Part shown: one piece after another, positions 2,139-26,416 of the stretch
Position numbering within the stretch: position 1 is the first letter of the stretch
Layout of the letters: every line of letters begins with the position of its first letter
Source: an uncultured bacterium
GTDB lineage: Bacteria > Verrucomicrobiota > Kiritimatiellia > CAIKKV01 > CAITUY01
Assembly: GCA_903895695.1 (NCBI GenBank)
Contig: CAITUY010000147.1
Location: 1 to 64,000, forward strand
Length of the DNA stretch: 64,000 nt
Direction of reading: 5' to 3'
The notes under the pieces: generated by a model
Databases searched by the model: none
The model's input: only the letters and a program-made list of their open reading frames with translations
Told to the model about the DNA's origin: nothing
Position numbers and translations under genes: made by a program

Positions 2139-2145
2139 GGGGGAT

Positions 2146-2230
2146 GGGAAGTGAACAGTGAACGGTAATCAGTCAACAGTGAACGGTTAACGGTAACTGT
2201 TCACCGTTCACTGTCCACTGTTCACTTCCC
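2146..2230. repeat. palindromic intergenic repeat (family D) overlapping the pckG stop
   Basis: A perfect 15-bp inverted repeat (GGGAAGTGAACAGTG at 2146-2160 against 2216-2230) encloses further repeats of the motif GTGAACGGT. The whole is an 85-bp hairpin made of GTGAACAGT/GTGAACGGT units. The right arm supplies the last codons (Gly-Lys) and the stop of the PEP carboxykinase gene. Confidence 0.75.
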
Positions 2231-4030: not shown

Positions 4031-4123
4031 GTGTGTGCCTCCCTCAGAAGTGGCGGCGGAGGTTACGCGGCGCGCGCCCCAAAAGCAAGCGATTAATCAG
4101 AAGCGAGAGCGGAACAAACGTAT

Positions 4124-4164
4124 CGGCCCCGGCCCGCGCGAACGAGCGCACGAGGCCGGGGCCG
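4124..4164 (-). terminator. putative terminator hairpin
   Basis: A perfect 10-bp GC stem (CGGCCCCGGC at 4124-4133 against 4155-4164) with a 21-nt loop lies just 3' of the beta-barrel gene ending at 4216. The downstream T stretch on the minus strand is weak. A termination role is plausible but not certain. Confidence 0.4.
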
Positions 4165-4215
4165 CTGATTCTTGAATGGCCGGCGCTTGGCGTCGGCCAT
4201 GCGATTTCCGCGCGT

Positions 4216-5016
4216 CTACGGGAAGTTGATGTCCACCTGGGTGGTGAAGGTGTTTGCCCCGGCCAGGCTCTTTTCTTCGTAGATGTCGTAGCCGAAGATC
4301 ACGGACACATTCTTGGAGAACGACCAAGCGGCGCCAAAGCTCAGTGCGCTGAGGGAATTCCCGCCGCCCATGTAGTCAACAGCCAGCCAGAGCTTATCCG
4401 AGATCTCGTTCATGGTGCGATCCCACGAAAGGAGCACGCCGTCGTTGGCTTTCGCCCCATCCGTACCCAGCAGGACCTTGTCATTGCCGACGTAGTACCC
4501 CGCCGAGAGCCGGCCGAGTGACGGCACGCTGCCAAAGCCCGGTATCGTCTTGGCCACCATTCCGTAAACGATGTCCTGATCCGTTCGCACGGCGCTGTCC
4601 TTCTTGCCGTTGGTGCCGAAGCCGTACCCGCCCACTGCCAGCGCAGGCGCATTTGTCACGAGCGTTCCCTCGGGGATCCCGACCTTGGCATTAAAGTAAA
4701 CCGGATAGTCGTCGTACCCCGTGCCATTCGCGATATAATCCACCCCGACTTCCGCATTAACCTTCTCAAAGGGCAACACGCCAACCGTCAGGCCCGCGTC
4801 ATAGACGTTCGGATCCCGCTGCCCCGGGGTAATGTCCCCCTGAGAAGACGTCCTGAGATAGTTGTCCAGCCCAAGGTGCCATACGTTGAACGGCTGGATA
4901 TCCGTGGACGGAATCCAAACCTGCGTCGACGGAGTCGCCATCGCCACGACGACCCCACCTATCAAGGTGCCGCCCGCCACAACCGCCATCCATCCCGACT
5001 TCGATATCCGCTTCAT
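4216..5016 (-). CDS. predicted outer-membrane beta-barrel protein
   Basis: About 266 aa with an N-terminal signal segment (MKRISKSGW, then a Val/Ala/Gly stretch ending near VAMATP). Alternating hydrophobic strands follow, such as NAEVGVDYI and LSFGAAWSFSKN. It ends in a strand finishing VDINFP. The layout suggests a porin-like or export barrel, but I cannot name a family. ATG at 5016 is preferred: GAGGAGG lies 9 nt upstream, and an in-frame ATG at 5022 would sit only 3 nt from it. It is transcribed divergently from ddl across a 400-bp AT-richer spacer, so it probably has its own promoter there. Confidence 0.75.
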   Translation of the reverse strand: MKRISKSGWMAVVAGGTLIGGVVVAMATPSTQVWIPSTDIQPFNVWHLGLDNYLRTSSQGDITPGQRDPNVYDAGLTVGVLPFEKVNAEVGVDYIANGTGYDDYPVYFNAKVGIPEGTLVTNAPALAVGGYGFGTNGKKDSAVRTDQDIVYGMVAKTIPGFGSVPSLGRLSAGYYVGNDKVLLGTDGAKANDGVLLSWDRTMNEISDKLWLAVDYMGGGNSLSALSFGAAWSFSKNVSVIFGYDIYEEKSLAGANTFTTQVDINFP

Positions 5017-5022
5017 CGCCAT

Positions 5023-5423
5023 CGTCCTCCTCTGTTTGGGTTTCTGCACTAATGCCGGACATGTATGCAAAGCATGTGCCAACTCAACGAAGCGACGAGG
5101 TGTACCGCCACAACACATTCTAAAATAGCATCTTACGACAGAAGTCGGTCAGGTAGTGATCAAGACGAGCAGCAACTTTGATACAGATTTGTATGGTTAA
5201 TTAACGATACATTCACTGTTGTAGTCAAACTCCAAACAGGGAAGGCGCCCGCCTGCAACGTCACTACTTCCCCTTCCCCTGGCGCGGGATGATCGTGCTG
5301 GAGCGTCAGGCTCATCCGGTCCGCGCCTCGGTTTTTTCTTGTGCCCACGCACCCTCGCCGGTATGAAGTGTCCCACCCTTCGACGCCCGCAGAAGAGAGT
5401 TCGGGCGCCTTAGAAATCAGAAT
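5023..5423. other. intergenic region between divergent genes
   Basis: This 400-bp spacer separates the beta-barrel gene (minus) and ddl (plus). It is clearly more AT-rich than its flanks, especially 5117-5230, as expected for promoters. On the minus strand TAGAAT at 5117-5122 could be a -10 box for the barrel gene; I cannot see a convincing -35. No coding signal is seen. Confidence 0.5.
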
Positions 5424-6320
5424 GTGACCATGAAGCGTTTTCACCGAGTGGCCGTCCTTAAGGGCGGTCCGTCCACCGAGCGCAGCATCTCGCTCCAGTC
5501 GGGAGCCGCCGTCGCGCGTGGACTGGCGCAGGCCGGCTATGCCGTCACCGAAATCGACGTCACCGACCGGACGTTCGAACTGCCGCCCGACGTCGAGGGC
5601 GTGTTCGTGGCCCTGCATGGCGAGTTCGGCGAGGACGGGCAGGTCCAGTCACTGCTGGAGCAGCGGAGAATTCCCTACACGGGATCAGGACCCGCGGCCA
5701 GCCTGCTCTCCGTCGACAAACGGCTAAGCAAAGCGGTCTTCGTTAAAGCAGGCATCCCGACCGCCGCATTCGAAGTACTCGGGCCGCACGGCCGTCGCAC
5801 CCTCCCCTTGCCGGTGGTCGTCAAACCGCCATGCCAGGGGTCGACCTACGGCGTCCACCGCGTCAAGGCCGAGTCCGAGTGGCCGGCGGCGTTTGCCGAT
5901 GCGCTCCGATACGACGGCGAGGTGCTCGTCGAGGCTTTCATCGCGGGTCGCGAACTCACCTGCGGCGTAGTCGGCGACCAGGTCCTGCCGGTTACCGAGA
6001 TCCTGGCGCCCGATGGTTGGTACGACTTCACCGCCAAGTATGAAAAAGGCCAATCGCGCCATCTTTGTCCCGCGCCGCTGGACGAGGCAACGACCCGCCG
6101 GTGTCAGTCCATCGCCTTGCGCGTCTTCAAGTCGCTGGACTGCCGCGGGCTCGGGCGGGTGGATTTCCGGCTCTCGCCCGAAGGTGAACTATTCGTGCTC
6201 GAGCTGAATAACATCCCGGGCTTCACCGACACGAGCCTCCTTCCGGAAGCCGCGCAAGTCGCCGGTATCGCATTCCCCGACCTGTGCGCCCGCATCATGG
6301 AGATGGCCACGCTGGACTGA
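5424..6320 (+). CDS. ddl: D-alanine--D-alanine ligase
   Basis: ATP-grasp enzyme that joins two D-Ala for peptidoglycan pentapeptide synthesis. The protein is 298 aa, within the family range. The N-terminal signature GGPSTERSISLQSG is the family's GGxSxEREVSLxSG variant. LHGEFGEDGQVQ and PYTGSGPAASLLSVDK are typical of Ddl, and the C-terminal ELNNIPGFTDTSLLPEAA carries metal and substrate ligands. The start is GTG 5424 or ATG 5430. The gene is the first of ddl-ftsQ-ftsA-ftsZ; the usual upstream mur genes are absent from this side of the window. Confidence 0.95.
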   Translation: MTMKRFHRVAVLKGGPSTERSISLQSGAAVARGLAQAGYAVTEIDVTDRTFELPPDVEGVFVALHGEFGEDGQVQSLLEQRRIPYTGSGPAASLLSVDKRLSKAVFVKAGIPTAAFEVLGPHGRRTLPLPVVVKPPCQGSTYGVHRVKAESEWPAAFADALRYDGEVLVEAFIAGRELTCGVVGDQVLPVTEILAPDGWYDFTAKYEKGQSRHLCPAPLDEATTRRCQSIALRVFKSLDCRGLGRVDFRLSPEGELFVLELNNIPGFTDTSLLPEAAQVAGIAFPDLCARIMEMATLD

Positions 6321-6344
6321 CGCGAGTGCCGACGGATACACGCT

Positions 6345-7232
6345 ATGTGGATCGGAAAGAAACAACGCAAGGGCGACGAAAAAGGCAGCCTGTACAAGTC
6401 TGCGCCGCGCGTCGGCGCGAAAGGCCGACGCCGCCTGTCGGTGTCGCCTACGGTCACCATTCCGGTGGTGGCGGGCCTGGGTCTTGTGCTGGCGGGCGTG
6501 CTCGCCTGGAAGACGGCCGCTTGGCTCTTCTGGCAGAACCCCGACTACACCTTGAAGACGCTCACAATCCACATCGACGGCCAGTCGATTACCCCCCAGG
6601 TCGTACGCGATCTGACCGGCATCGCGGAAGGCACCAACCTTTTCGCGGTGGGCCTTGCCGACGCCGCCGACCGCTTCCTGAAGAAGAAACCCGAGGTAAA
6701 GGCAATCGCCCTGCACCGCAGGCTGCCGGATGCCATGACCATCGAGGTGTCGGAGCGCACGACCGTCGCCCGCCTGGGTCGGTGGGGATCCTATGGGGTG
6801 GACCATGATGGCTGGGTATTTCCCATCAAGCCCGGCGGCCGGGAACTGCCCGTGATTAGCGGGTGCAGCGAAGCCAGCCTGCGTCCCGGAACGCGCGCCG
6901 ACGTGGCCGTCCTCGAGGCCATCGACGTGCTGGAAGCCTGCACCCGGTGTCATTTCGGCGAGCGCGTGCGCATCGCCTCGATTGACGTGAGCGCAGCGGC
7001 CAAGGTCGGCGCGGAGCAACGCGGTTACGTGGAACTCTACCTGGCCGCCGGCGAGCGCATCCGCCTTGCCTGGCCGGGCATGGGCACGCCAACCCCCGAG
7101 GCGAGGGCGGCGGTCGAGCGCAAACTGGCACAACTGGCGACCGCCCTGCGCGTATCCGAGGAACGCGGGCACCGCCTGGTCAATTTGGATTTGACGTTTC
7201 ACGATCAATACGCGCCGGCCCAGGAGTACTGA
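6345..7232 (+). CDS. ftsQ: cell division protein FtsQ
   Basis: Bitopic divisome protein. A basic cytoplasmic tail (residues 1-40) is followed by one membrane segment (about 41-64). Next comes a POTRA-type domain starting near LKTLTIHIDG, with GIAEGTNLFAV and LPDAMTIEVSERT, and then the FtsQ domain. Length is 295 aa. It begins 24 nt after ddl and is followed by ftsA, the canonical dcw order, which supports the call given modest sequence conservation. In other bacteria FtsQ links FtsB/FtsL and late divisome assembly; that role is assumed here. Confidence 0.88.
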   Translation: MWIGKKQRKGDEKGSLYKSAPRVGAKGRRRLSVSPTVTIPVVAGLGLVLAGVLAWKTAAWLFWQNPDYTLKTLTIHIDGQSITPQVVRDLTGIAEGTNLFAVGLADAADRFLKKKPEVKAIALHRRLPDAMTIEVSERTTVARLGRWGSYGVDHDGWVFPIKPGGRELPVISGCSEASLRPGTRADVAVLEAIDVLEACTRCHFGERVRIASIDVSAAAKVGAEQRGYVELYLAAGERIRLAWPGMGTPTPEARAAVERKLAQLATALRVSEERGHRLVNLDLTFHDQYAPAQEY

Positions 7233-7269
7233 AGCGGCAGTTTCTCGAAATGATCGAAAGTGGGGAATT

Positions 7270-8487
7270 ATGGCTGTTTCACCCGTGGTGGCAGTGGAAA
7301 TCGGAACCTCGAAAGTCGTCGTCCTGGTGGGCGAACTCCGTGAGGACGGCCACATCGTGGTCGTGGGGAAGGGCGAACAACCGTCAACCGGCGTCCGCAA
7401 GGGCGAGGTGACGGATGTCGACCACGCCGAGACGTGTGTTCACGCCGCCCTGGGCGCGGCGGAAGAAAACGGCCAGGTCACCATCCATCAGGTGCACCTG
7501 GCGCTGTCCGGTGGCCACATCGAGGCCACCCCCAACCGGGGGGTCATCCCGGTACACTCGGCCGACCACGTGGTGACCGAGGACGACGTCGAGGAGGTCA
7601 CGGAGCTGGCGCGGGCCGTCAACCTATCCCCCGACGAACGCAAGGTGCTCCACTCGATCGGCCAGCTCTTCCATGTGGATGGCGAACGCGTGGGCAATCC
7701 AGTGGGATTCGAGGGCGCCCAACTGGCGCTCGACATGCTTATTCTGCATGCCAAGACATCGCATGTCCGGACTTCCGTCCGACTGCTTCGGAAACTCCAG
7801 CAGGACGTGGCCGACATCGCCTTCAGTGGACTTTGTTCGGCCCTGGCCGTCGTCACCCCGGAACAAAAAGAAGGCGGCGTGCTGGTCATCGATCTGGGTG
7901 GCGGCACGACCACCTATGTCGCCTATGCGGCCGGCACTTTCGCGGCGGCGGGCGCCCTGGGACTGGGGGGCGACCACGTCACGAACGACATCGCGCTGGC
8001 TTTCAACATCCCGCGCAGCCAGGCGGAGCGCCTGAAGAAGGAGGCGGGAGGGGCCATGCCCGACGAGTCGGCGCGGAATACGCGCGTAAACCTTCCACCC
8101 GAGGTGGGCTACCCCGGCCGGACAGTCAGCATGGCCGCCCTGCACACCGTGATCCACCTGCGATTGGGCGAAATCTTCAACCTCATCCTTCGCGACATCG
8201 AACGTCACGGCATCCAGCATCAGATCGGAGCGGGCGTGATCCTGACCGGCGGCGGCGCCCATATGAAAGGCATCCTGGACCTCGCCGCGCGGACGTTCCG
8301 GGTTCCCTGCGCGATCGGCGTCCCAATCGGCTTCATCGGCCGCCCCCAGTCCATCGAGTATCCGGAATACTCGACAGCCGCGGGGCTGCTTCGGTACGCA
8401 GCCCGTGCCGCCGCCGGTCAGCGCCGCCCCTCGCCGCTCAAAGGCCTGACCGATATGTTCAAGTCCGCCGTCGGGAGAAGACCATGA
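7270..8487 (+). CDS. ftsA: cell division protein FtsA
   Basis: Actin-like ATPase that anchors FtsZ to the membrane. At 405 aa it has the actin-fold motifs: phosphate-1 VEIGTSKVVVLVGE, phosphate-2 VLVIDLGGGTTTY and the adenosine motif GVILTGGGAHMKG. Position 10 in phosphate-1 is Glu where FtsA usually has Asp. A short basic amphipathic C-terminus (LKGLTDMFKSAVGRRP) fits the membrane-targeting helix. The gene overlaps ftsZ by ATGA at 8484-8487, indicating translational coupling. Confidence 0.95.
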   Translation: MAVSPVVAVEIGTSKVVVLVGELREDGHIVVVGKGEQPSTGVRKGEVTDVDHAETCVHAALGAAEENGQVTIHQVHLALSGGHIEATPNRGVIPVHSADHVVTEDDVEEVTELARAVNLSPDERKVLHSIGQLFHVDGERVGNPVGFEGAQLALDMLILHAKTSHVRTSVRLLRKLQQDVADIAFSGLCSALAVVTPEQKEGGVLVIDLGGGTTTYVAYAAGTFAAAGALGLGGDHVTNDIALAFNIPRSQAERLKKEAGGAMPDESARNTRVNLPPEVGYPGRTVSMAALHTVIHLRLGEIFNLILRDIERHGIQHQIGAGVILTGGGAHMKGILDLAARTFRVPCAIGVPIGFIGRPQSIEYPEYSTAAGLLRYAARAAAGQRRPSPLKGLTDMFKSAVGRRP

Positions 8488-14111: not shown

Positions 14112-14576
14112 TCAGGCCTTGCGCTTCAGGAAGGTGCAGCAATCACCGCTCTTCATGCAGGCGTAGAGTTTGTAGACGGGACAGGCCCAGATTGCGGAGA
14201 TTGTCTTGACTACACAATACGCAAAAGTTAGGCTCCACCCCACGCGCTCGTTGATTCCATAGAGGAAGACCAGGCAGAGCACCGCGAACACCGCCCCCAT
14301 GCTGTGCGCGACCCGCATGCCCGCGGGGCTCAGCATGGTCGGCGCAGACGGCATCAACCGTTCGACGGTCATCGAGTACAGCCACACGAACGGAGCCCGA
14401 CGGATCGACAGCAAAGCCGAGAGCGCCAGCACGCCCCCCACCACGGCCACTAGAGCCTTGATCTTCAGCAAGAACGCCGTCCAGATGAGGACCGCCATCG
14501 CATAACGGCAGAACGCAAAGGCGCCTTTCGGCACCGGCACTTGATCCAGGTAGTTGCACTGCGGCGTCATGGTCAT
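14112..14576 (-). CDS. DUF4395-like membrane protein, last gene of lipid operon
   Basis: 154 aa with four hydrophobic segments (about 22-44, 47-66, 90-112 and 114-135). A Cys-rich tail (ACPVYKLYACMKSGDCCTF) follows. N-terminal CNYLDQ and the overall layout resemble DUF4395 membrane proteins of unknown function. ATG 14576 overlaps the stop of the methyltransferase gene by ATGA, with GGGAGGG close upstream, so it is translationally coupled. The five clustered cysteines could bind metal or take part in thiol chemistry; that is inference. Confidence 0.7.
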   Translation of the reverse strand: MTMTPQCNYLDQVPVPKGAFAFCRYAMAVLIWTAFLLKIKALVAVVGGVLALSALLSIRRAPFVWLYSMTVERLMPSAPTMLSPAGMRVAHSMGAVFAVLCLVFLYGINERVGWSLTFAYCVVKTISAIWACPVYKLYACMKSGDCCTFLKRKA

Positions 14577-15229
14577 GTCCCTCCCGCGCGGCGCGCGGCG
14601 GGCTTCTTCCAGAAGAACCTCCCAACGCGCCGGCAATAATCCTCATAGTCCTTGAATTCCCGCGCCAACATCGCCTCTTCCAGCCGGGCGCGGTAGGTCA
14701 TGAACGGCACAAACACCAGCGTGTTCGCCAGAAACGCCGCCGCATTGGCGTACACGAGACTGGCGCCAAAGAACATCCAGATGATCGATGCGTAGAGCGG
14801 ATGCCGTACCCAGCCGTAGACCCCGGTCGTCACCAGCGACTGCCCGTCGTAGATCGTCGCCTGGTTCGCCCAGTTGCGACCCAGCCGCAGACGTCCGGCA
14901 ATGTTCACCACGCAACCGAACACGATGACCGCCAACCCCGCCGCCGCCATCGCCAACCGCAGGCCGAACGCGTCGAGCGGCACTTCGCCGACACGAAACC
15001 GAATCAGCAGGTAGTAGCCGACGAAGAACAGGGTCATCGTCCCGGTCGCCACGACGCTCCGGCGTTCCTTCTTCACGCCGTCGTGGCCCCGATGGCAGGT
15101 CAGAAAGTTGACCAGGACCGCCCCGAAAACCCCAATGGCGCAGGATGTGATCACCAGGGAGGCGACGAGGTTCAACACTCCCGCCGGAGTTTGAAGACAC
15201 TGCCGCCAGACGTCAGGCATCGTGCTCAT
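14573..15229 (-). CDS. isoprenylcysteine-carboxylmethyltransferase-like membrane methyltransferase
   Basis: 218 aa with about five hydrophobic segments. The C-terminal half has the ICMT/phospholipid-methyltransferase pattern: GRNWANQATI, LVTTGVYGWVRHPLYASI (the conserved GxYxxxRHPxY SAM-binding motif), then RLEEAMLAREFKDYEDYCRRVGR with the two conserved acidic/basic residues. The enzyme is expected to transfer a methyl group from SAM to a lipid-type substrate in the membrane. It overlaps the preceding radical-SAM gene by 4 nt (15226-15229). In context it may modify a product of that enzyme. Confidence 0.85.
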   Translation of the reverse strand: MSTMPDVWRQCLQTPAGVLNLVASLVITSCAIGVFGAVLVNFLTCHRGHDGVKKERRSVVATGTMTLFFVGYYLLIRFRVGEVPLDAFGLRLAMAAAGLAVIVFGCVVNIAGRLRLGRNWANQATIYDGQSLVTTGVYGWVRHPLYASIIWMFFGASLVYANAAAFLANTLVFVPFMTYRARLEEAMLAREFKDYEDYCRRVGRFFWKKPAARRAGGT

Positions 15230-16608
15230 GGGTTCCGATGGAAGAGGTTATAGGCTGAGAACGGGATGCGCCGCAAGTCGCGCGTCACCACGTGCACGCA
15301 CTCGCGCTGCATGGATTTCAGATCGAAGTTGTAGGCGTCCACGAACGAGGACACGCTGATGCGAAACAGGTTGCGGTTGAAGTAGCCCGCCTTCTCCTTC
15401 TCGCTCAGCCGACCGTAGCCGGCCGGAATGAAGGGACGCACGGCAGAAAGGAAACGCGCCATGCACGCGCACACGCCTCCGTCCCCCGCCGCCTGGGCCA
15501 GGTATTCATCGGCGTCAAAGGCGAACGTGTTCCCGAGCAGGGGCAAATGCTCGCGCACATCCACTTTGCGCGTTATTGGCACGAACCGCCCATTCTCGCG
15601 GTAGCAGAAGGTCAAGGCGACCCGCTCGACATTGCAAGGCAACGGCACGAAATCCCGCAACTGGAATTCGCCCTCCGTCTGGCGCTCGAGGTTCTCGAGC
15701 ACGCCGGTCAACGTGAGACGATCTTGCCGGTCATCGGCGCGGCTGTCGCCGTAGTAGGCCAGTGGCTGGTAATTCACCCCGCGCACGCCGGGAATGGACA
15801 TGGCGTGCCGCAGGATCGCGCCAATCTCGCCATCGTTCACGCCCTGCCGGACCGTGGCGACGAGCGTCACGGGGATGCCGGCCGCAGTCAGTCTCATGAT
15901 GGCCCGCTCCTTGATGTCGCGCAGGTCGCGCCCCCTGAAGACCGAGTGGCCGCGCGCAGAGGGACCGTCATATTGCAGGTAAACCTCGAACTGGGGCAGA
16001 AGCCCGGCCAGGCCGGCGACCAGCGCATCATCCTCCGCCAACCTGAGCCCGTTGCTGTTGAGCAGGATGTATTTGAACCGTTTGGTCTTGGCCAGCGCGA
16101 TCAGGTCCAGCAGGCGCGGATGCAGCGTGGGCTCGCCGCCGCTCAGTTGCAGGATTTCCGCCTGACCGGATTCCGAGGCCTGCAGAAAGTCCATCATCCG
16201 GTCCGCCTCCGCGAGCGTGAGGTCCGGGATATCCTGCCGCCCCGTGTAGCAATCCGGGCAGGCGAGTTCGCAGGCCCCGTTGATCTCGATCAGCCCGATG
16301 CAGGTATGCTGGTCGTGCTCGGGACATAACCCGCAATCGAAAGGACAACCCCGCCGCGACTCGGTTTGGACGACCGAACGCGTACCAGGCTTGGTGAATG
16401 TGTTTCGCGCCAGATAGTAGTCGGCATTCGCTTCGCGCAGTTCGATCTGCTGTCCGTGAACCGGGCAGGACTTGACCACATAGACTGATCCGTCCCGGAT
16501 CGCCAGTTCGGCCGTTACCCGGTCGAGGCACTGCGGGCAGATGCTGACGGTCGGCTCGATCGAACGGAATCCGTCGGGCAGCGCCGGTGTCGTTGCGTGT
16601 TCGGTCAT
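15226..16608 (-). CDS. radical SAM enzyme resembling archaeal tetraether lipid synthase (Tes/MJ0619-type)
   Basis: 460 aa. The radical-SAM cluster is C113-x3-C117-x2-C120 (ACELACPDCYTG), with GGEP at 157-160. N-terminal to it is the extra metal module typical of MJ0619-type enzymes: C24-x2-C27, then C48-P-x-H51. A second set follows, C88-x3-C92-x2-C95-x2-H98 and C103 (GCPFDCGLCPEHDQHTC). More cysteines lie at 325, 335, 380 and 382. Archaeal Tes joins two lipid tails to make membrane-spanning lipids. A similar C-C bond or other lipid reaction is inferred here, not shown. The gene sits in a lipid-type operon. Confidence 0.85.
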   Translation of the reverse strand: MTEHATTPALPDGFRSIEPTVSICPQCLDRVTAELAIRDGSVYVVKSCPVHGQQIELREANADYYLARNTFTKPGTRSVVQTESRRGCPFDCGLCPEHDQHTCIGLIEINGACELACPDCYTGRQDIPDLTLAEADRMMDFLQASESGQAEILQLSGGEPTLHPRLLDLIALAKTKRFKYILLNSNGLRLAEDDALVAGLAGLLPQFEVYLQYDGPSARGHSVFRGRDLRDIKERAIMRLTAAGIPVTLVATVRQGVNDGEIGAILRHAMSIPGVRGVNYQPLAYYGDSRADDRQDRLTLTGVLENLERQTEGEFQLRDFVPLPCNVERVALTFCYRENGRFVPITRKVDVREHLPLLGNTFAFDADEYLAQAAGDGGVCACMARFLSAVRPFIPAGYGRLSEKEKAGYFNRNLFRISVSSFVDAYNFDLKSMQRECVHVVTRDLRRIPFSAYNLFHRNP

Positions 16609-16629
16609 GCCGGGTCTCGGGCGCAGATA

Positions 16630-17349
16630 CTAACGCAGCGACAAAATCACCATCGCATAGACCGGAGTCAAGGCCACATCGACCACCAACGCCGCGGGGA
16701 TGGTGATTAACTTGAGAATGTTCGGCGGAGGGCCAAAATTCGCAAGTTTTGGATCATAGAAGACGATTTCGCGACTGGTGTCGAACTGGTCGGGCACGGC
16801 CTTTTTGAGTTTGGCCGCCGAGGCGACGACGCCAGCCACGCGCACGTCGATAGTATATTGGCCAGGGGCATTGAGTTTAAAACCCAACGTCTTCAGTTCC
16901 TCGGACGTGGCCGGCGTGCGAGAGGACTTCTCCGGCTTGTAGGTCAGCGTGATATCCCCCCAGATGTTCTCACCCTCATAGCACAACCCACGCGTCCCGG
17001 GATCCAGTGTCAGCCCTGAACCGCCCAGAGCATGGGCTATCTTCTCGATGGTGCCCCCACCCTCCACCAGCAAGTACGTGTGCTTTCGCCCCAAGAACGC
17101 CACGACGTCCTCATGCCCCAACTCTTTCGTAAGAGCCGCATCCGGATGCGCCATGGCAAAGACTTTATCCCTCAACACGACCACCTGCCTGCTATGGTGC
17201 AAACTGGCAAGAGGATTGGGTGTCGCGGTCGCGGCGATATACGTGGCGCATCCGAGTCCGCCCACGGCTGCCGCGCACCCCAGCAGAATGAAAACGGCGC
17301 GGACGATCGGCGATGACTGAATCCACTGGCGTACGCTCTGCTGATTCAT
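16630..17349 (-). CDS. YceK-like putative lipoprotein
   Basis: 239 aa. A signal-type segment is followed by cysteines suited to lipidation (ILLGC at about residue 25, or GGLGC a little later; neither is a perfect lipobox). The C-terminal part (KLITIPAALVVDVALTP) resembles the YceK/YidQ family of small lipoproteins, whose function is unclear. ATG 17349 overlaps the stop of the lgt-like gene (ATGA, 17346-17349). A 21-nt gap separates it from the radical-SAM gene, consistent with one operon. It could be a cell-envelope partner of the lipid chemistry. Confidence 0.7.
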   Translation of the reverse strand: MNQQSVRQWIQSSPIVRAVFILLGCAAAVGGLGCATYIAATATPNPLASLHHSRQVVVLRDKVFAMAHPDAALTKELGHEDVVAFLGRKHTYLLVEGGGTIEKIAHALGGSGLTLDPGTRGLCYEGENIWGDITLTYKPEKSSRTPATSEELKTLGFKLNAPGQYTIDVRVAGVVASAAKLKKAVPDQFDTSREIVFYDPKLANFGPPPNILKLITIPAALVVDVALTPVYAMVILSLR

Positions 17350-18113
17350 GCGCGTTCCCTCCCCCGATCGCGAGCCAAGCCGGCAGCGATCGCCACGATG
17401 CTTACGATACAAACCCATTGAATGCCGGACAAGCCGAATGCATAGGCATGCGGCACCGGTTTAAGGAAATCAATCAGCAAGCGCCAGGATAGATAGCCGA
17501 GCATCGTTACACGGAAAGACAATCCTGGGCACGAGGTCCAGCGTTGCCGCCAACGCGGCCAAGTCGCGGCCGCCAACCCAGCGGCTGCGATTTCATAGAG
17601 CTGCGTGGGATGCCTGGGGATACCGTCGCCAAAATCGACACCCCAGATCGCAGACGTCGGATTGCCGCACGTGCCGTCCGGCAGTCCGGCCAGGAAACAA
17701 CCCACGCGGCCCACAACGAGCGCGACGAGAACGGGCAGCACGTAGTCGTCACCCGTGCGGGCTGCGATGCCGGCCACGCGTTTGCCGGCTTCCACGCCGA
17801 TCCATCCACCCAGCAATCCGCCCACAATGGACTGTCCGCCCAGCAGCAACACTAAGCCGGAGTGGAAACCTTGCTCGAAGCCCCCTTCGTCGAACCACGC
17901 CACCAACTTGTTTCCGATGGCGGCGCCCAGCAACGCGCCCAGCAGTGGGGCGAACGTTCCCGCGGCCAGCAGTCCCTGAGCCCCCGCCTGCGTGCGACGC
18001 CACCGGTAGATCGCGAGCCCCGTCAGCAACGCCGCCCACTCGAAACCATAGTGTAGACGCTGCGCCGCCGGCGCCGGGATCACAAAGGCCGCACACAACG
18101 ACGTCAGGACCAT
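17346..18113 (-). CDS. prolipoprotein diacylglyceryl transferase-like membrane protein
   Basis: 255 aa with about seven hydrophobic segments. Lgt-like motifs are GGQSIVGGLLGG, GRVGCFLAGLPDGT and RHPTQLYE. The arginine of the GRxxx motif is kept. However, the His of the HGG motif (here VGG) and the Asn that is essential in E. coli Lgt (here Cys) are replaced, so this may be a paralogue with another acceptor. Lgt moves a diacylglyceryl group from phosphatidylglycerol. It heads the operon and overlaps the lipoprotein gene by 4 nt. A housekeeping lgt may exist elsewhere. Confidence 0.75.
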   Translation of the reverse strand: MVLTSLCAAFVIPAPAAQRLHYGFEWAALLTGLAIYRWRRTQAGAQGLLAAGTFAPLLGALLGAAIGNKLVAWFDEGGFEQGFHSGLVLLLGGQSIVGGLLGGWIGVEAGKRVAGIAARTGDDYVLPVLVALVVGRVGCFLAGLPDGTCGNPTSAIWGVDFGDGIPRHPTQLYEIAAAGLAAATWPRWRQRWTSCPGLSFRVTMLGYLSWRLLIDFLKPVPHAYAFGLSGIQWVCIVSIVAIAAGLARDRGRERA

Positions 18114-19470: not shown

Positions 19471-19932
19471 TCAATGCCGATCTACTGAGCCCTTCGTCAT
19501 GTCCTCCAGAATGGCCACGACGGTCCGGACGCACGGCTTGCACGTGGCATTCAAAAGATCCCGATCCTTGAAGAGTTTGCGGCCTTCGTCGGTCGTGAGA
19601 TCGCACCCGCCCAGGAGCGCGCGGCAGGCGCACGTGCCGTGATCGTCCTCAAAACGCCGCATCAGTTCCTGCGTTCTGGCGTAGGTATCCTCGGTCGCCG
19701 CGCGATCCTGTCCCTCACCCCGGCCGTGACGGAGACCGAGCACCATGATGCCGCCGGCCACGGCGCCGCAGGTTTCCTGCCGACGCGCCATTCCGGCACC
19801 GAACCCGCAGGCGATCTTCAACGCGGTTTCGGGCTCCATTCGGAGCTCGTCGGCAAACGCCCACAACACCGACTGCGCACAGTTGTAGCCCGCCAGGAAC
19901 TTCTCCGTAGCCTTGTCACTTCGCGTCTTCAT
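19471..19932 (-). CDS. C_GCAxxG_C_C family redox protein
   Basis: 153 aa. The family pattern is visible: NCAQSVLWAF, then CGFGAGMARRQETCGAVAGG, CACRALLG and CKPCV, a set of conserved cysteines (about eight). These proteins are annotated only as putative redox or metal proteins. ATG 19932 has AAGGAGA 6 nt upstream and is preferred. Its order with dapL on the same strand suggests possible co-transcription, though 61 nt separate them. Confidence 0.85.
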   Translation of the reverse strand: MKTRSDKATEKFLAGYNCAQSVLWAFADELRMEPETALKIACGFGAGMARRQETCGAVAGGIMVLGLRHGRGEGQDRAATEDTYARTQELMRRFEDDHGTCACRALLGGCDLTTDEGRKLFKDRDLLNATCKPCVRTVVAILEDMTKGSVDRH

Positions 19933-20104
19933 CAGGTCTCCTTTCAAACCAGTTGCGGCGGCGCAGGAAAAACGTTGGCTCTTTCGAAGGGAATACGGTG
20001 CCAGAACCCTACCGGAGATTCAAGGGTGAGTGCCGCCCGAAACTCCACTGGTGCAAATGCGCGGAATCTTCTAGTGTGTCGCGGATTCGCCGGAATGATT
20101 GCCG

Positions 20105-22510
20105 ATGCCTGTTGACCCGCTTCATCGAATTGCGCCTTCCATGCGGAACCGCCAGGTCCTGGTGTCCGTCGCGCTCGGACTCGTGCTTCTGGCTGCAGTC
20201 GTCGGGCTGCGCTACCTCACCTACAGCAACGACGTCGCGCTGATGCTCCCTGCCGATCCGGGCGTGCAGCGCACCATGCGGTTCTTGCACGAGTCCAGCC
20301 TGTCGCAGGAGGTCGTGCTCTCGCTCGCGCTGAACGACCGCGAGCATACGACGGATGACCTGATCCTGGAGGCCGACCGACTGATCGGCACACTCAAGTC
20401 GCCCCTGATCAGCGAGGTGGCCGGCACGCTCGCGGGCGGCGACGTGATGACCGAGATGACGGCCTTTCTCCAGTACACACCGCAGTTGCTCACCCCGGAA
20501 GCCTTTGCCGCCATGACCAACCAAGTCACGCCCGACGGCGTCCAGGAACGGCTCAAGCGCCTGTACCGCCAATGCCTGGCGCCCAGCAGTTCGTTCACCA
20601 TACCGTTCATGCGGAGCGATCCCCTGGGCGTTGCCGACGGCACGATGCGCGATGTCACCCGCCTGTTCGGCTCGCTGGGCTATGACGTGAAGGTGAAGGA
20701 CGGCCACTTCATCAGCGCGGACGGCCGCCATGCCCTGGTCATCCTGAAGACCCCGGTGGTAATGACGGACAGCGCCGGGGCCCGGGATCTCATCGGGTTC
20801 CTGAGGGGCCGTCTGGCGGCCTTGCCGCCCTGGGTTTCGGGCAGCATCATCTCGGGCCACCTTCACACAATGAGCAACGAAGACGTGATCAAGCGCGACA
20901 TTCAACTGACGTCGGCGGCCGCCTCCCTGGCCTTTCTATCGCTGTTCCTGATCTGTTTTCGGGATGTCCGAGCTGTGCTGATCTTCGCAACGCCGTTTGC
21001 CGCGGTCGTGATCGCCACGCACGCCTCCTGGCTCGTCTTCGGCAGTCTCTCGGGCTTTGTGGTGGGCTTGTCAACAGTCGTGGCGGGCATCGCGATCGAC
21101 TATGGCATCTACGTCTATATGGCCGTGCGGCGCGCCGGCAATAGTCGCGAGACCATCCGGCAGATCGTCAGGCCCGTCACGTTTGGCGCACTCACGACCA
21201 TCAGCGTCTTCGCCGCTTTCTTCCTGTCGGGAGTGGAGGGGTATCGTCAGCTCGCGCTGTTGTCGAACTTGAGCATCGCCCTGTGCCTCCTGTTCTCATT
21301 GTTTGTTCTGCCGATGTTTCTGCAACGGAGGAAATCCGATGCGCCATCCGTGCCGACTGTCGAGCCCGGCGCAGTGCCCGGAAGCCCGGCGGGAGATCGC
21401 ATCCGCGTGTGGGTCTGGTTACTGATCGTGGCGAGCCTGGCGGCATTGGCCTGCCGCACTACCTTCAATGAAGACATCACGCAGTTCGACGGCTCAGGGC
21501 CGGATATCGTGAACGCCGAAAAGGAATTCCATCGCGTGTGGGGCGGCAGCACGATGCCTGCCATACTGGTCGCTCCCGCAAGGACGGCAGAGGAAGCCTA
21601 TCGACAGAATGACGCCATCTTCCGAGAGGCGAGTTCCGTGCTCGGCAAGGACAAGTTGGCAAGTCTGGCGACGATCTGGCCGTCCAAGGCCGCACGCGCC
21701 GAGAACCTGCAACGCTGGGACTCTTTCTGGAGCGGCGAACGCGAGGCGCAATTCCGGGATCTATTGGCTGTACAAGGCAAGGCTTACGGCTTCGCGACCA
21801 ATGCCTTTCAGCCTTTCTTCGAACAACTGCATGCCAAGGCCACCTTGGATGACGAACCGAAGAACGTGGCCTTTTTTGGCCGTCTCAGGGACCGGTTCGT
21901 GGTGCGCACGAAGGCCGAGTTCGAGATCCTGACGTTCTTCCCCGACAAGGACGAGGATCTGGCCGCCATGTCGAAGGTGTCGAAAGATTTCCCCGGCACA
22001 TTCCTGGTCTCGCAGAAGCACTTTGCCCGGCTGGTCTCGAGGTCAGCCATGTCGGAATTGCTCTTCCTGGCGGTACTCGGTATCGGGGCGACCGTGGTTC
22101 TCACGCTCCTGCTACTCAGAAGCATACGGCTGACGATTCTGGCATTGGTGCCTGTGGTCACCGGCCTGGCCGCGATTCTGGGCGTCATGGTGCTGCTGGG
22201 ACTATCCCTGAATATCCCCAGCATTATTGCGTCGCTCGTGGTCGTGGGCATTGTCAGCGACTACGGCATGTTCGTCGTCTATTACTGCAAACACAAATAT
22301 GAAACCGGCACCTATGCGGCCGTGTCCTTGGCCGCCGTGAGCACGTTCATCGGCGCCGGGGCGTTGCTGCTGGCCCGGCACCCCACCCTCTTCTCGGTAG
22401 GCGTGACCATGGTGACCGGGGTTCTCACCGGCTACCTGTCCAGCCTCTGGATCATCCCGCCCTTGTACAGGCTGTGGCCGAGCCGGGCGCCTAAAACTCG
22501 ATTACCGTAA
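20105..22510 (+). CDS. MMPL/RND-superfamily lipid exporter
   Basis: About 801 aa. It has the RND-like layout of two repeats, each with one N-terminal helix, a large extracytoplasmic loop and a bundle of about five helices. The first bundle carries GLSTVVAGIAIDYGIYVYM and the second VVVGIVSDYGMFVVYYC, the conserved acidic GIxxDY motifs of proton-driven MMPL exporters. Such proteins export lipids, hopanoids or aryl polyenes. Its position beside the lipid operon and a membrane phosphoesterase suggests a lipid cargo, by inference. ATG 20105 is the best start. Its end overlaps the convergent metallophosphoesterase gene by 20 nt. Confidence 0.85.
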   Translation: MPVDPLHRIAPSMRNRQVLVSVALGLVLLAAVVGLRYLTYSNDVALMLPADPGVQRTMRFLHESSLSQEVVLSLALNDREHTTDDLILEADRLIGTLKSPLISEVAGTLAGGDVMTEMTAFLQYTPQLLTPEAFAAMTNQVTPDGVQERLKRLYRQCLAPSSSFTIPFMRSDPLGVADGTMRDVTRLFGSLGYDVKVKDGHFISADGRHALVILKTPVVMTDSAGARDLIGFLRGRLAALPPWVSGSIISGHLHTMSNEDVIKRDIQLTSAAASLAFLSLFLICFRDVRAVLIFATPFAAVVIATHASWLVFGSLSGFVVGLSTVVAGIAIDYGIYVYMAVRRAGNSRETIRQIVRPVTFGALTTISVFAAFFLSGVEGYRQLALLSNLSIALCLLFSLFVLPMFLQRRKSDAPSVPTVEPGAVPGSPAGDRIRVWVWLLIVASLAALACRTTFNEDITQFDGSGPDIVNAEKEFHRVWGGSTMPAILVAPARTAEEAYRQNDAIFREASSVLGKDKLASLATIWPSKAARAENLQRWDSFWSGEREAQFRDLLAVQGKAYGFATNAFQPFFEQLHAKATLDDEPKNVAFFGRLRDRFVVRTKAEFEILTFFPDKDEDLAAMSKVSKDFPGTFLVSQKHFARLVSRSAMSELLFLAVLGIGATVVLTLLLLRSIRLTILALVPVVTGLAAILGVMVLLGLSLNIPSIIASLVVVGIVSDYGMFVVYYCKHKYETGTYAAVSLAAVSTFIGAGALLLARHPTLFSVGVTMVTGVLTGYLSSLWIIPPLYRLWPSRAPKTRLP

Positions 22511-23276
22511 TCTCCGGCCTGCACAGAAACCGCATGTTCAGATAGAACGTGCCGATGCCGGGATTGACGTACAAAGGTCCGCACGGCGTCTGGTACAGAC
22601 CCCTGCCGTACTTGCCGATGTCGATCGGCAGGGCAGACCGATTCGCAAAAGGGATCCGGACTTGCCCGCCGTGCGTGTGGCCGGCCAGAACCACGTCGAA
22701 CTGTTCACCGCGCACTTGCTCGACGGCATCCGGGTGATGTTCCATCAGAATGCGTTTGTACCCGGGCGGCGTCTGTTCATGACAATCGGCAAAAGTCATC
22801 AACGCCACACGCTTCGACGGCACAAGGATTGTCTCGCGGAAAAGCCAATCCCCACCCGTTTTGCGAAACACGTCCCGTAGGCGGCCAAAAGACCGTATGA
22901 CCCATTGATCGTGGTTCCCCGGAACGCCGTAGAGGGGCTTATTGATCTTCGAAAGAATGCGAAGCGCACCCTCCTGGAAGGCGGCCTCCTCAACCAGATC
23001 GCCCGTGAAGCACACAAAATCGGCATCCAGACGATTGATAACGGCCACCACCTTCTCAAGGTACTGGGTGTCGCCTTTGAAGTGAATATCCGTGATGTGG
23101 ATGACCCGGACCGTGGGCGACAGCGACAGCGTGATGTGCCTGACGCACAGCCAGGTTGGCTCGACAAATCGGGCGTAGGCGACGCACAACGCCGCCAAGG
23201 TCGCAAGCACACCGGCCACAGCAAACACGCGTCGCAGGGCGCGCTTCAATATCAGCAGGAACTGCGCGCGTTGCAT
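22491..23276 (-). CDS. membrane-anchored metallophosphoesterase (YaeI/LpxG-like)
   Basis: 261 aa. One N-terminal hydrophobic anchor is followed by a calcineurin-type domain with all five motifs: HITDIHFKG, CFTGDLVEE, GVPGNHDQW, LAGHTHGGQ and the intervening LMEHHPD. Chlamydial LpxG, which splits UDP-diacylglucosamine in lipid A synthesis, belongs to this group, but other YaeI-type enzymes have other substrates. A lipid A role is therefore possible and not established. ATG 23276 has AAGGATC upstream. It ends a minus-strand run of four membrane-protein genes. Confidence 0.85.
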   Translation of the reverse strand: MQRAQFLLILKRALRRVFAVAGVLATLAALCVAYARFVEPTWLCVRHITLSLSPTVRVIHITDIHFKGDTQYLEKVVAVINRLDADFVCFTGDLVEEAAFQEGALRILSKINKPLYGVPGNHDQWVIRSFGRLRDVFRKTGGDWLFRETILVPSKRVALMTFADCHEQTPPGYKRILMEHHPDAVEQVRGEQFDVVLAGHTHGGQVRIPFANRSALPIDIGKYGRGLYQTPCGPLYVNPGIGTFYLNMRFLCRPEITVIEF

Positions 23277-23320
23277 GGGAAGATCCTTGTGACGCGGACC
23301 ACTACGAAACATTTCGGCTT

Positions 23321-23885: not shown

Positions 23886-26108
23886 TCAGTTAGCCCGAGT
23901 CTGTTTGTAATACCATTGCAGTTGGTCTGCGGAAGTGCCTTCATCGACGTTTTCGGCGGATAACGCCGCCTCGCCCCGCGCCTCGGGAAGGACCTCTTTG
24001 AGCTTCCACATGTTGTCCAGTCTTCCAAAGGTCCAGTACTCCACCCACGGGGTAACGTCTTCGTCCTGGCTGATCAACAGACTGTTCCGGCGGACAATCC
24101 TCTGGGCATGGGCGCTGATTCGGACGGTGAACTCGTCCTGCGTGTTGTCGGAATAGTTACGCACCAGGACCAACTCCGCCTTGCGCACGCAAAGGTTGCG
24201 GTACTCCAGCCGCGTTCCCTGGGCGCCGAGGCGTACCAGTTCCCCTTGCAGGCTGGTGGCCACGGCGGGGAACAACTCCGCCATCGGTATGGCGGCCGGG
24301 TCGCCGCCTTCGCGCGCGAGCATGACGTGCAAGAACACCTGGCGGGCGCGCTCCAGCATCGCCTCCTGATTCCAAAGCTTGTCGGTCTGAACGAGAAAGT
24401 TCAACAGCCGCTCGACGCGCGTAGTCTTGGCCAATGTATCCTTTTCCAACCACGGCCCCGCCGGGCCCTGCTTGCCCGCCGCGTCGGCATAGACCTGGTT
24501 CAATCCCACATTGGTAAACTGCTCGAAGAAATTCTCCTGCTTCAGCACGTCGGACTCGCGGGTCTGCTCGATCTCGCGCAGCAGCCAGGCGCCATCCTGC
24601 CGATGGAACGTCCAGAACTCCTGGAAACGCGCGGGCTGTTTGTCGCCGCGCACAAACTCCTGCGTGCGGTCGTCGAGATAGTAGTCGCGCGCGCAGGCCG
24701 AAATGAGCGCCGTGAATTCGCGATCGTTCTCCTTTTGCGTGTACCGGACGTTCACGATATCCACGTGCTCGACACGCAGATCCGCAAGCACATTGATCTC
24801 ATGGTTACGAATCAACCCGCCGATCTGGTGGCAGTGCTCCGCATAGAGGTCGGGCATGAGCAACGTCTTCATGGGGTCGTACTGCCGCGCCTGCCAGCAA
24901 TCCTGCAGTTTCTTGAACGTGGACAAAGCCAGTTCCTCCAGCGCGCCGGCTGCCATGGTCTGGTCCACGCGGGAAAGAAATTCAAGCAGCTTCCGTGTCT
25001 TGACGGCCTTGCGTTCGATGTCGGCCCGGCTGTAGGAGAAGTCCAGATCCTCGCCGTCACCGGCTTTCTGCCTGGCATTGAGAATAGTGCTCGCCAGCAC
25101 GATCACGCCCATGATGACGAGCACAATGATCAGGTCTTTTGGATCGTTCGATCCTCCCCCGGAGGAATGGAATCCGCCATAAGAGCCGCCGTGAAAGCCG
25201 CCGCCGCCGAAACCACCGCCACCCTTGTTGTGCACCGCCACCTTGTTGGCGAAATAGGTGTTCGGATGGTCGGTCTGCAAGTTGTAGACCCGAGTCGGAG
25301 CGTGGACGGTGTGAATGCTGGCAATACGCTGTTCTTGAAGGCGGTCGCCGGCGACCGCGAAGACCGCGTCCCCGACTTTCAATGCTTCCAGAGTCTTGAA
25401 TACTCCGTTACCCACGTAGAATGGGTGTTCTCGGGTCACACGCAGCGTCGCCGTTTCCGTGCTCACGACGAAGTATTCATCCACGTCGTAGACGATCACC
25501 TGCCGCACGGTGGTGTGGACCGTCTCCCCGGAGAGTGTGAATGCAAGCAACTCATCGCCGGGCTGAATCGCGCTGATGGGTGCTTCCGTGCTGTCCGCGC
25601 GCAGGATCGGCGTGTCGGGCAGGAAGCAGCCCTTGTTGTGCACCACCACGCCGTTCGCGAGATAGGTGCCGCCCGGAGCCACCATGAGGTTGAAGGCGGG
25701 GCGCAACGCTTTGACGTGGGCCACGGTGTCGATGCGAACAGCGCTAAGCCCGTTCGCGTCGCCCACCAGGACCGTGTCACCCGGCTGCAGGCTTGCTGCC
25801 GTGCGGAACACACCGGGCCCGATCTGCACTGGATGCTCCACGGTGGCCCGCAGCGTTCTCCCGGCCGCGACAATCTCGACATATTCGTCAGGACTGACCC
25901 GCATCACCGCCTGAACCGTAGCCGATTCGCAGTGCCCCTTCTCGACCGCCCAGACAGCATCGCCACACGCCAGTTGCTCGATGGGAACCAGACCGACCGG
26001 CGTGGCGACCCGCGTGCCCTCCTCCAGGCAGCCGCCGCCACCGCGCCCCCACGCCGCGCAGAGGGGAAGCAGCGTGAACGCGAAGATGGCTGTGGTCCGA
26101 AGTCTCAT
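23886..26108 (-). CDS. Tim44-like membrane protein with two tandem Hint (intein-like) domains
   Basis: 740 aa, in order: signal peptide (1-22, ending CAAWG), glycine stretch GRGGGG, Hint domain 1 (27-158), a Lys-Gly spacer, Hint domain 2 (161-294), glycine-rich KGGGGFGGGG region (295-320), one membrane helix (325-343), and two tandem Tim44-like domains (about 385-530 and 565-715). Each Hint domain begins with Cys (CLEEGT, CFLPDT), has a TxxH motif (TVEH, TREH) and ends in HN. The residue after HN is Lys both times, not Cys/Ser/Thr. It therefore looks like a bacterial intein-like pair able to cleave or possibly splice, not a standard intein. An upstream TTG at 26150 is an alternative start. 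Confidence 0.88.
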   Translation of the reverse strand: MRLRTTAIFAFTLLPLCAAWGRGGGGCLEEGTRVATPVGLVPIEQLACGDAVWAVEKGHCESATVQAVMRVSPDEYVEIVAAGRTLRATVEHPVQIGPGVFRTAASLQPGDTVLVGDANGLSAVRIDTVAHVKALRPAFNLMVAPGGTYLANGVVVHNKGCFLPDTPILRADSTEAPISAIQPGDELLAFTLSGETVHTTVRQVIVYDVDEYFVVSTETATLRVTREHPFYVGNGVFKTLEALKVGDAVFAVAGDRLQEQRIASIHTVHAPTRVYNLQTDHPNTYFANKVAVHNKGGGGFGGGGFHGGSYGGFHSSGGGSNDPKDLIIVLVIMGVIVLASTILNARQKAGDGEDLDFSYSRADIERKAVKTRKLLEFLSRVDQTMAAGALEELALSTFKKLQDCWQARQYDPMKTLLMPDLYAEHCHQIGGLIRNHEINVLADLRVEHVDIVNVRYTQKENDREFTALISACARDYYLDDRTQEFVRGDKQPARFQEFWTFHRQDGAWLLREIEQTRESDVLKQENFFEQFTNVGLNQVYADAAGKQGPAGPWLEKDTLAKTTRVERLLNFLVQTDKLWNQEAMLERARQVFLHVMLAREGGDPAAIPMAELFPAVATSLQGELVRLGAQGTRLEYRNLCVRKAELVLVRNYSDNTQDEFTVRISAHAQRIVRRNSLLISQDEDVTPWVEYWTFGRLDNMWKLKEVLPEARGEAALSAENVDEGTSADQLQWYYKQTRAN

Positions 26109-26146
26109 GCGCGAACCCAAAAGTTCCTTGGCACCGATCGAGGCGT

Positions 26147-26416
26147 TCAATGCAGTCCGGCAAGGATTCCGCCAAGCACGGCCGCCGCCACCACTATGCT
26201 GATTCCGATGATGCTGGCGCCGACGACCCGGCCGAAGTATTGCGCCACCGCGACATTGCCGCGGGCGATTTCCTTGTCCTCATCGATGTTGGGCGTCATG
26301 CGATCCACCAACCGCGGAATGAATAGCGACGCCAGCAGAACCAACCCGATCCCAATGAGGCCCCCGAGCACCGAGAACGCCACCGCCCAACCCATATTCT
26401 GTGCAACTTCGCTCAT
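26147..26416 (-). CDS. DUF350-like membrane protein
   Basis: 89 aa with two to three hydrophobic segments. The pattern EIARGNVAVAQYFGRVVGASI resembles DUF350/YjfL membrane proteins, which occur in pairs of a helix-helix unit; function unknown. ATG 26416 has GAGGGGGG 4 nt upstream. It is the first gene of a minus-strand run and precedes the Tim44-like gene. The two may act together in the membrane, which is inferred only from position. Confidence 0.75.
   Translation of the reverse strand: MSEVAQNMGWAVAFSVLGGLIGIGLVLLASLFIPRLVDRMTPNIDEDKEIARGNVAVAQYFGRVVGASIIGISIVVAAAVLGGILAGLH

Follow-up and report, generated by a model that had tools for sequence, protein, structure and literature searches.

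A radical SAM enzyme of tetraether-synthase type paired with a second Lgt-family protein: a bacterial cassette that probably makes an unusual membrane lipid or lipid anchor

What might a bacterium make with a radical S-adenosylmethionine (SAM) enzyme resembling archaeal tetraether synthase, encoded in one operon with a relative of the diacylglyceryl transferase Lgt? The question is raised by contig CAITUY010000147.1 (assembly GCA_903895695.1) of an uncultured Kiritimatiellia bacterium (Verrucomicrobiota), of which positions 1 to 64,000, here called the window, were analysed. Five minus-strand genes encode, in transcription order, an Lgt-like protein, a lipoprotein-like or membrane-anchored protein, the radical SAM enzyme (rSAM), an ICMT/PEMT-type integral-membrane methyltransferase (hereafter ICMT) and a DUF4395 membrane protein (Table 1). 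All five frames are intact, begin with ATG and lie where an earlier note, made from the sequence alone, had placed them. Three junctions are 4-nt overlaps (17346-17349, 15226-15229 and 14573-14576) and the lipoprotein-rSAM junction is a 21-nt gap; as that note had proposed, this is a real operon. We find it to be a member of a cassette that occurs in many bacterial groups and probably makes an unusual membrane lipid or lipid anchor. The cassette, with a core of an Lgt paralogue, an rSAM like the archaeal enzyme GDGT-MAS (also Tes; MJ0619, 7tol/7tom) and a small Cys-containing membrane protein, is tentatively read here as lipid-modifying; the sub-clade of the window adds ICMT and DUF4395, and the lipoprotein-like protein would stand in the place of the small protein.

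The radical SAM enzyme and its relation to tetraether synthase

GDGT-MAS is the only close solved structure for the window rSAM. An AlphaFold2 model of the latter, built from 29 aligned sequences (predicted local distance difference test score, pLDDT, 87.8; predicted template-modelling score, pTM, 0.90), matched 7tom with a template-modelling (TM) score of 0.81 in Foldseek and with Z 43.2 over 430 residues at 3.3 Å. The next-best structural family was MoaA (Z 19.9), and GDGT-MAS was the only full-length match. Comparison with the Tes structure, the check suggested in the earlier note, thus yields a full-length GDGT-MAS-type fold, and the enzyme as modelled has the complete GDGT-MAS/Tes architecture.

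The metal sites agree with this fold in large part. A rubredoxin-like site (C24/C27/C48/H51), an N-terminal cluster motif (cluster-N; C88/C92/C95/H98) and the SAM cluster (C113/C117/C120) are present, together with C103 and the C-terminal cysteines C325, C380, C382 and C437. Across 94 aligned rSAM rows, C48, C88, C95 and C113/C117/C120 are kept in all 94, C24, C27, C103, C325 and C437 in 93, and C92 in 92. All motifs of the extra Cys modules that had been assigned to the MJ0619/Tes type are therefore there, but C103, counted among them, aligns to an Ile of GDGT-MAS. The rSAM relatives L021-L026, from the same phylum as the window, lack the CxxxCxxC...H spacing of cluster-N in the alignment, and some of them have an Lgt gene 0.4-5 kb away.

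The C-terminal domain is altered: Met439, Tyr459, RCC and PFC of GDGT-MAS correspond to Ser420, Val440, REC and PFS in the window rSAM, with E436 at the position of C455. According to PMC9433317, Met439 and Tyr459 are invariant among 1000 archaeal homologues, GDGT-MAS variants at these positions are still active, so that neither residue is essential, and the enzyme links a carbon of the substrate to an Fe-S cluster sulfur, the cluster being placed as the C-terminal one. The altered C-terminal site is hence where the chemistry could differ.

The best NCBIfam models for the window rSAM were that of TrsS, a radical SAM (seleno)protein (NF045646; residues 20-456 aligned), with 319.4 bits against a cut-off of 490, and that of Tes (NF045702), with 259.1 bits against 450; 10 of 10 other relatives scanned also fell below both cut-offs. 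TrsS is said to have been introduced by Haft and Tolstoy in 2025. The genome of the window has 49 Radical_SAM matches, but one relative of the operon rSAM at the thresholds used. In a tree whose archaeal row was single, long-branched and assembled from aligned MJ0619 stretches, with Acidobacteria Tes and TrsS sequences left out, archaeal GDGT-MAS grouped with four Chloroflexota homologues (99/93), apart from the cassette rSAMs. Window-type rSAMs formed one group (95/90) that has Elusimicrobiota, Actinomycetota, Armatimonadota and Bacteroidota members (L125 and L126 included), adjoined by those of the ICMT-bearing phylum-mates L016-L018 (99/96). With a Tes score this far below its cut-off, without Met439 and Tyr459 and outside the archaeal Tes group, the enzyme is not supported as a tetraether synthase by the sequence tests available, contrary to what the earlier note had implied. 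Set beside GDGT-MAS/Tes, it shares the full-length fold, the rubredoxin-type site, the N-terminal and SAM cluster motifs and the C-terminal Cys domain, and differs in score, C-terminal residues, its separate clade and its pairing with an Lgt-like and a small Cys protein.

These comparisons bear directly on whether the cassette makes membrane-spanning or otherwise tail-coupled free phospholipids, the direction in which the earlier note had pointed, with the rSAM joining tails, the Lgt-like protein and ICMT adjusting head groups and the small protein being an accessory. GDGT-MAS as sole full-length structural match argues for such a product, as does the locus L019 of a phylum-mate (G350; 344-7931), where two diverged rSAM relatives lie in one run with short-chain dehydrogenase/reductase, FabA-like and beta-ketoacyl synthase genes, possibly a fatty-acid-type cluster. 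Bacterial Tes homologues have moreover been put forward as candidates for the synthesis of branched tetraethers (branched glycerol dialkyl glycerol tetraethers), in PMC8941075, PMC11868695 and PMC10087280. The cassette rSAMs nevertheless form their own clade, outside that of archaeal Tes and the related Chloroflexota enzymes, and the window rSAM lacks Met439 and Tyr459, and near-universal partnering with a diacylglyceryl transferase paralogue would be left unexplained, which makes free phospholipids unlikely as the product, if still worth weighing. The Mss/Ger membrane-spanning lipid pathway, as described in PMC13274423, also couples fatty-acyl tails, the theme proposed here, but has by that description a different gene set.

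A second Lgt-family protein beside the enzyme

A search of named genomes with a single sequence as query returned no relative of the rSAM, and an alignment query returned 578. The locus set (n=93) comprised the best 80 of these 578, 12 stretches of phylum-mates and the window itself, and leans to close relatives because only the best 80 were kept; Chitinophaga, Hymenobacter, Paenibacillus and Mucilaginibacter are among those 80. A same-strand Lgt homologue lies within 1.5 kb of the rSAM gene in 65 of the 80 and within 5 kb in 4 more, and none is seen in the other 11, several of which lie at contig ends. When both flanks extend to at least 1.5 kb, 69 of 74 loci carry an Lgt homologue on the same strand within 5 kb, and an opposite-strand Lgt gene was near the rSAM gene in 0 of the 93. 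The five Lgt-less loci are L022, L024 and three from Dehalococcoidia. Four of the five loci of Dehalococcoidia-type Chloroflexota have no Lgt in the stretch covered, and L034 has one. In Chloroflexota with Tes-like rSAMs and no Lgt (L032, L035, L048 and L054), a gene for a soluble class I methyltransferase lies directly downstream.

The cassette Lgt is a second genomic copy: all 24 of the cassette genomes tested have at least two LGT-family matches, the count for L104 including pieces of a broken gene. That gene is the cassette Lgt of Flavobacterium davisii, which is broken in frame into 2-3 pieces, with one TAA (L104 7262-7952; G410:C1:3115084-3115937). The window genome has three LGT-family matches in total, with a separate high-scoring Lgt (201 bits) on another contig; the third is a weak family member (32.5 bits), also on another contig (G000:C209:53987-54709).

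Like Lgt (PDB 5azb/5azc), the window protein belongs to the Pfam LGT family (61.8 bits; gathering cut-off 24.9) and has its Arg, Tyr and HPxxLYE residues; it differs in falling short of the TIGR00544 equivalog cut-off (27.2 against 118.9 bits), in a Val for His substitution and in coexisting with the second, high-scoring Lgt. Of 79 cassette Lgt rows, 77 keep R127, 79 keep Y198, 78 keep R202, 78 keep P160 and 76 keep C130. By position, R127, Y198 and R202 match R143, Y235 and R239 of E. coli Lgt, and their near-complete retention suggests that activity is retained. The position of the E. coli Lgt His is Val in the Lgt-like protein and Tyr in the high-scoring Lgt of the same genome, and that of the Asn is Cys in both. 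The loss of His and Asn, taken earlier as fitting a changed acceptor, is thus real, but the argument from it is weak because the housekeeping-like Lgt of the genome lacks both as well.

The same residues weigh on the alternative that the Lgt-like protein is a lipid-presenting subunit devoid of transferase activity, the small protein and DUF4395 being scaffolds or electron donors with redox or metal-binding Cys. The missing His would fit such a subunit, and four Cys are invariant in the C-terminal tail of DUF4395 (see below); with R127, Y198 and R202 kept almost throughout the cassette rows, we consider this improbable.

A small membrane protein with a conserved cysteine

Most cassettes also encode a small membrane protein, defined here as an open reading frame (ORF) after the rSAM or Lgt gene that spans 60-170 aa and has 2-4 hydrophobic stretches. 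It is present in 70 of 89 testable loci (69 with Cys) versus 12 of 384 control genes (8 with Cys), two places being inspected per cassette against one per control gene. ORFs holding an ICMT motif were excluded before counting; a match found earlier in the window was such a piece. In 67 of the small proteins a Cys falls in the latter half of a hydrophobic stretch; position -2 is G, S or A in 52 of these, and GFSTC, LNAAC and LIGSC are typical contexts. Judged by positive charges, the Cys is at the outer end in 57 of the 67 and at the opposite end in 2, with 8 ties. The Cys is conserved while the remaining sequence diverges. No Pfam match at E<=0.01 was obtained (4 proteins) and none came near an NCBIfam curated cut-off (6 proteins). 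At L027 (10197-10832) the protein occurs as two tandem copies after Lgt (FMGSC, LFGSC).

Presence of the small protein follows that of Lgt: among the 74 loci, 57 have both, 12 Lgt only, 5 neither and none the small protein only (Fisher p 4e-4, indicative only because the loci are related).

A short conserved ORF beside an rSAM gene is also typical of systems for ribosomally synthesized and post-translationally modified peptides (RiPPs), and a Cys kept amid diverging sequence would suit a substrate of the rSAM, ending as a RiPP-like, radically cross-linked and lipidated membrane peptide. By profile and by fold, however, the rSAM comes closest to the TrsS/Tes group and to GDGT-MAS, a lipid enzyme, with peptide maturases far behind, and the small protein is missing beside the rSAM in the window and in five loci that lack Lgt too. 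We therefore regard a peptide product of this kind as doubtful.

The lipoprotein-like gene of the window comes immediately after Lgt and overlaps it by 4 nt; at L016, a small-protein gene fills the same slot, also with a 4-nt overlap. The lipoprotein-like protein has Cys25 and Cys34 inside its N-terminal hydrophobic stretch. As a conserved part of the cassette it was rejected, being found in 1 of 288 genomes of the phylum, its own, and a Collimonas protein occupying its place showed no relationship to it in BLAST or phmmer searches.

Sub-clade genes, neighbours and a possible mechanism

Of the 93 loci, 9 have ICMT next to the rSAM gene and 4 have DUF4395 there, the window being counted in both. 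The window ICMT passes the Pfam ICMT gathering cut-off (49.2 bits; cut-off 24) and is below the NF040696 equivalog cut-off (75 against 160 bits). DUF4395 occurs once per genome in L027 (Elusimicrobia), L028 (Chthonomonas), L029 (Actinobacteria) and L030 (Armatimonadetes), all of them ICMT-bearing, and in none of 6 further cassette genomes. In Chthonomonas, the rSAM contig ends in ICMT and another contig has ICMT-DUF4395-Lgt. Two Bacteroidota genomes (L125 and L126) have the order rSAM-ICMT-DUF4395-Lgt-small protein; in the window, the gene set is the same, the Lgt block having moved to the front. The genes for rSAM, Lgt-like protein, ICMT and DUF4395 thus recur together in unrelated phyla, so that the conservation on which the earlier note had staked its proposal extends to four of the five genes, the lipoprotein-like gene being the one left out. 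In an alignment of four DUF4395 rows, C132, C140, C146 and C147 of the Cys-rich tail and also C23 are invariant; the protein is predicted to be helical (pLDDT 79.9), with no PDB match at E<=0.001. At L020 (10022-11011, minus strand), an ICMT has a long Cys-rich C-terminal extension that by eye resembles the DUF4395 tail, possibly a fusion.

Table 1. The operon and other features of the window
Feature	Position	Strand	Remarks
DUF4395 membrane protein	14112-14576	-	154 aa; Pfam 1e-7
ICMT/PEMT-type integral-membrane methyltransferase	14573-15229	-	218 aa; Pfam ICMT 7.4e-13, PEMT 3e-12
Radical SAM enzyme (rSAM)	15226-16608	-	460 aa; Pfam Radical_SAM 1.1e-14, Zn_ribbon_HMPTM 6.5e-13
Lipoprotein-like or membrane-anchored protein	16630-17349	-	239 aa; frame checked, no Pfam/NCBIfam match
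Lgt-like protein	17346-18113	-	255 aa; Pfam LGT 7.9e-17
C_GCAxxG_C_C family (seleno)protein-like redox protein	19471-19947	-	Pfam 1.7e-32; 51 bits to DVU_1555 subfamily
MMPL gene	20099-22510	opposite to operon	
Phosphoesterase	22491-23312		
Frame with repeated modules	23886-26150	-	754 aa

An MMPL and a phosphoesterase gene do lie near the operon, as had been pointed out, but the MMPL gene is not part of the cassette: it is on the opposite strand, and neither this exporter nor the neighbouring aminotransferase, both tried as cassette parts, has a relative in the cassette position in related loci. No relative of the C_GCAxxG_C_C protein was found beside other cassettes by phmmer in the related loci. 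The 754-aa frame has two repeated CFLPDTPI...HNKG modules and by eye looks Hint/intein-type.

Taken together, an Lgt family that acts on Cys thiols, an enzyme of lipid-tail type and a conserved membrane Cys are most simply accounted for if the Cys is the acceptor and the rSAM modifies the lipid. The Lgt paralogue would move diacylglyceryl from phosphatidylglycerol onto the thiol of the dedicated membrane Cys, or a similar thiol acceptor; the rSAM would abstract a hydrogen from an acyl chain, either in that lipid or in its precursor phospholipid, and form a new bond, helped by its C-terminal Fe-S cluster as in GDGT-MAS. ICMT might then cap the product by methylation, with DUF4395 assisting at the membrane. 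The best-known ICMT methylates a lipidated C-terminal cysteine, and bacterial members have varied substrates; the window ICMT would, by analogy, fit a lipid-thiol product. A bolder form, which seems to us a long shot, has the rSAM coupling the acyl tails on the small-protein Cys with one another or with a further lipid. The resulting protein-tethered macrocyclic or membrane-spanning lipid would represent a third mode of membrane anchoring or spanning; in the ICMT-bearing clade it would also be methylated at a carboxyl or head group, an extension that we hold equally speculative.

Several points count against a lipid-modifying cassette built on a Cys acceptor. Where E. coli Lgt has its catalytic His, the Lgt-like protein has, as noted, Val. 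The residues round the membrane Cys are small and hydrophobic but misfit the canonical lipobox. Twelve of the 69 Lgt-bearing loci are without a detected small protein, the window among them, where the lipoprotein-like protein fills the slot by position only. Lgt works from the outer face of the membrane and GDGT-MAS-like enzymes are cytoplasmic, so that the two would have to reach a common lipid from opposite sides. The small-protein criterion, finally, was chosen after seeing the first 93 loci and was for this reason tested on other genomes: of 198 Bacteroidota genomes drawn evenly, 16 had the rSAM, one being the query, and after removal of L114 (the same genome as L102) Lgt and the small Cys protein were each found in 13 of the remaining 14 (14 of 15 each before removal).

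Our search found no literature joining a GDGT-MAS-like rSAM to either an Lgt paralogue or the small protein; the work of Haft and Tolstoy (2025) lay outside that search and may describe part of the system. In PMC8941075 and PMC11868695, bacterial Tes homologues are counted as possible evidence of branched tetraethers and serve to propose producers. What accompanies a large bacterial set of Tes-like enzymes is instead a diacylglyceryl transferase paralogue together with a small Cys-containing membrane protein. If the cassette rSAMs make a different product, producer counts based on Tes homologues would mislead; if the cassettes make membrane-spanning lipids, many culturable bacteria would newly join the producers, including Chitinophaga, Hymenobacter, Paenibacillus and Mucilaginibacter. 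Either way, the cassette allows a direct test in ordinary laboratory bacteria.

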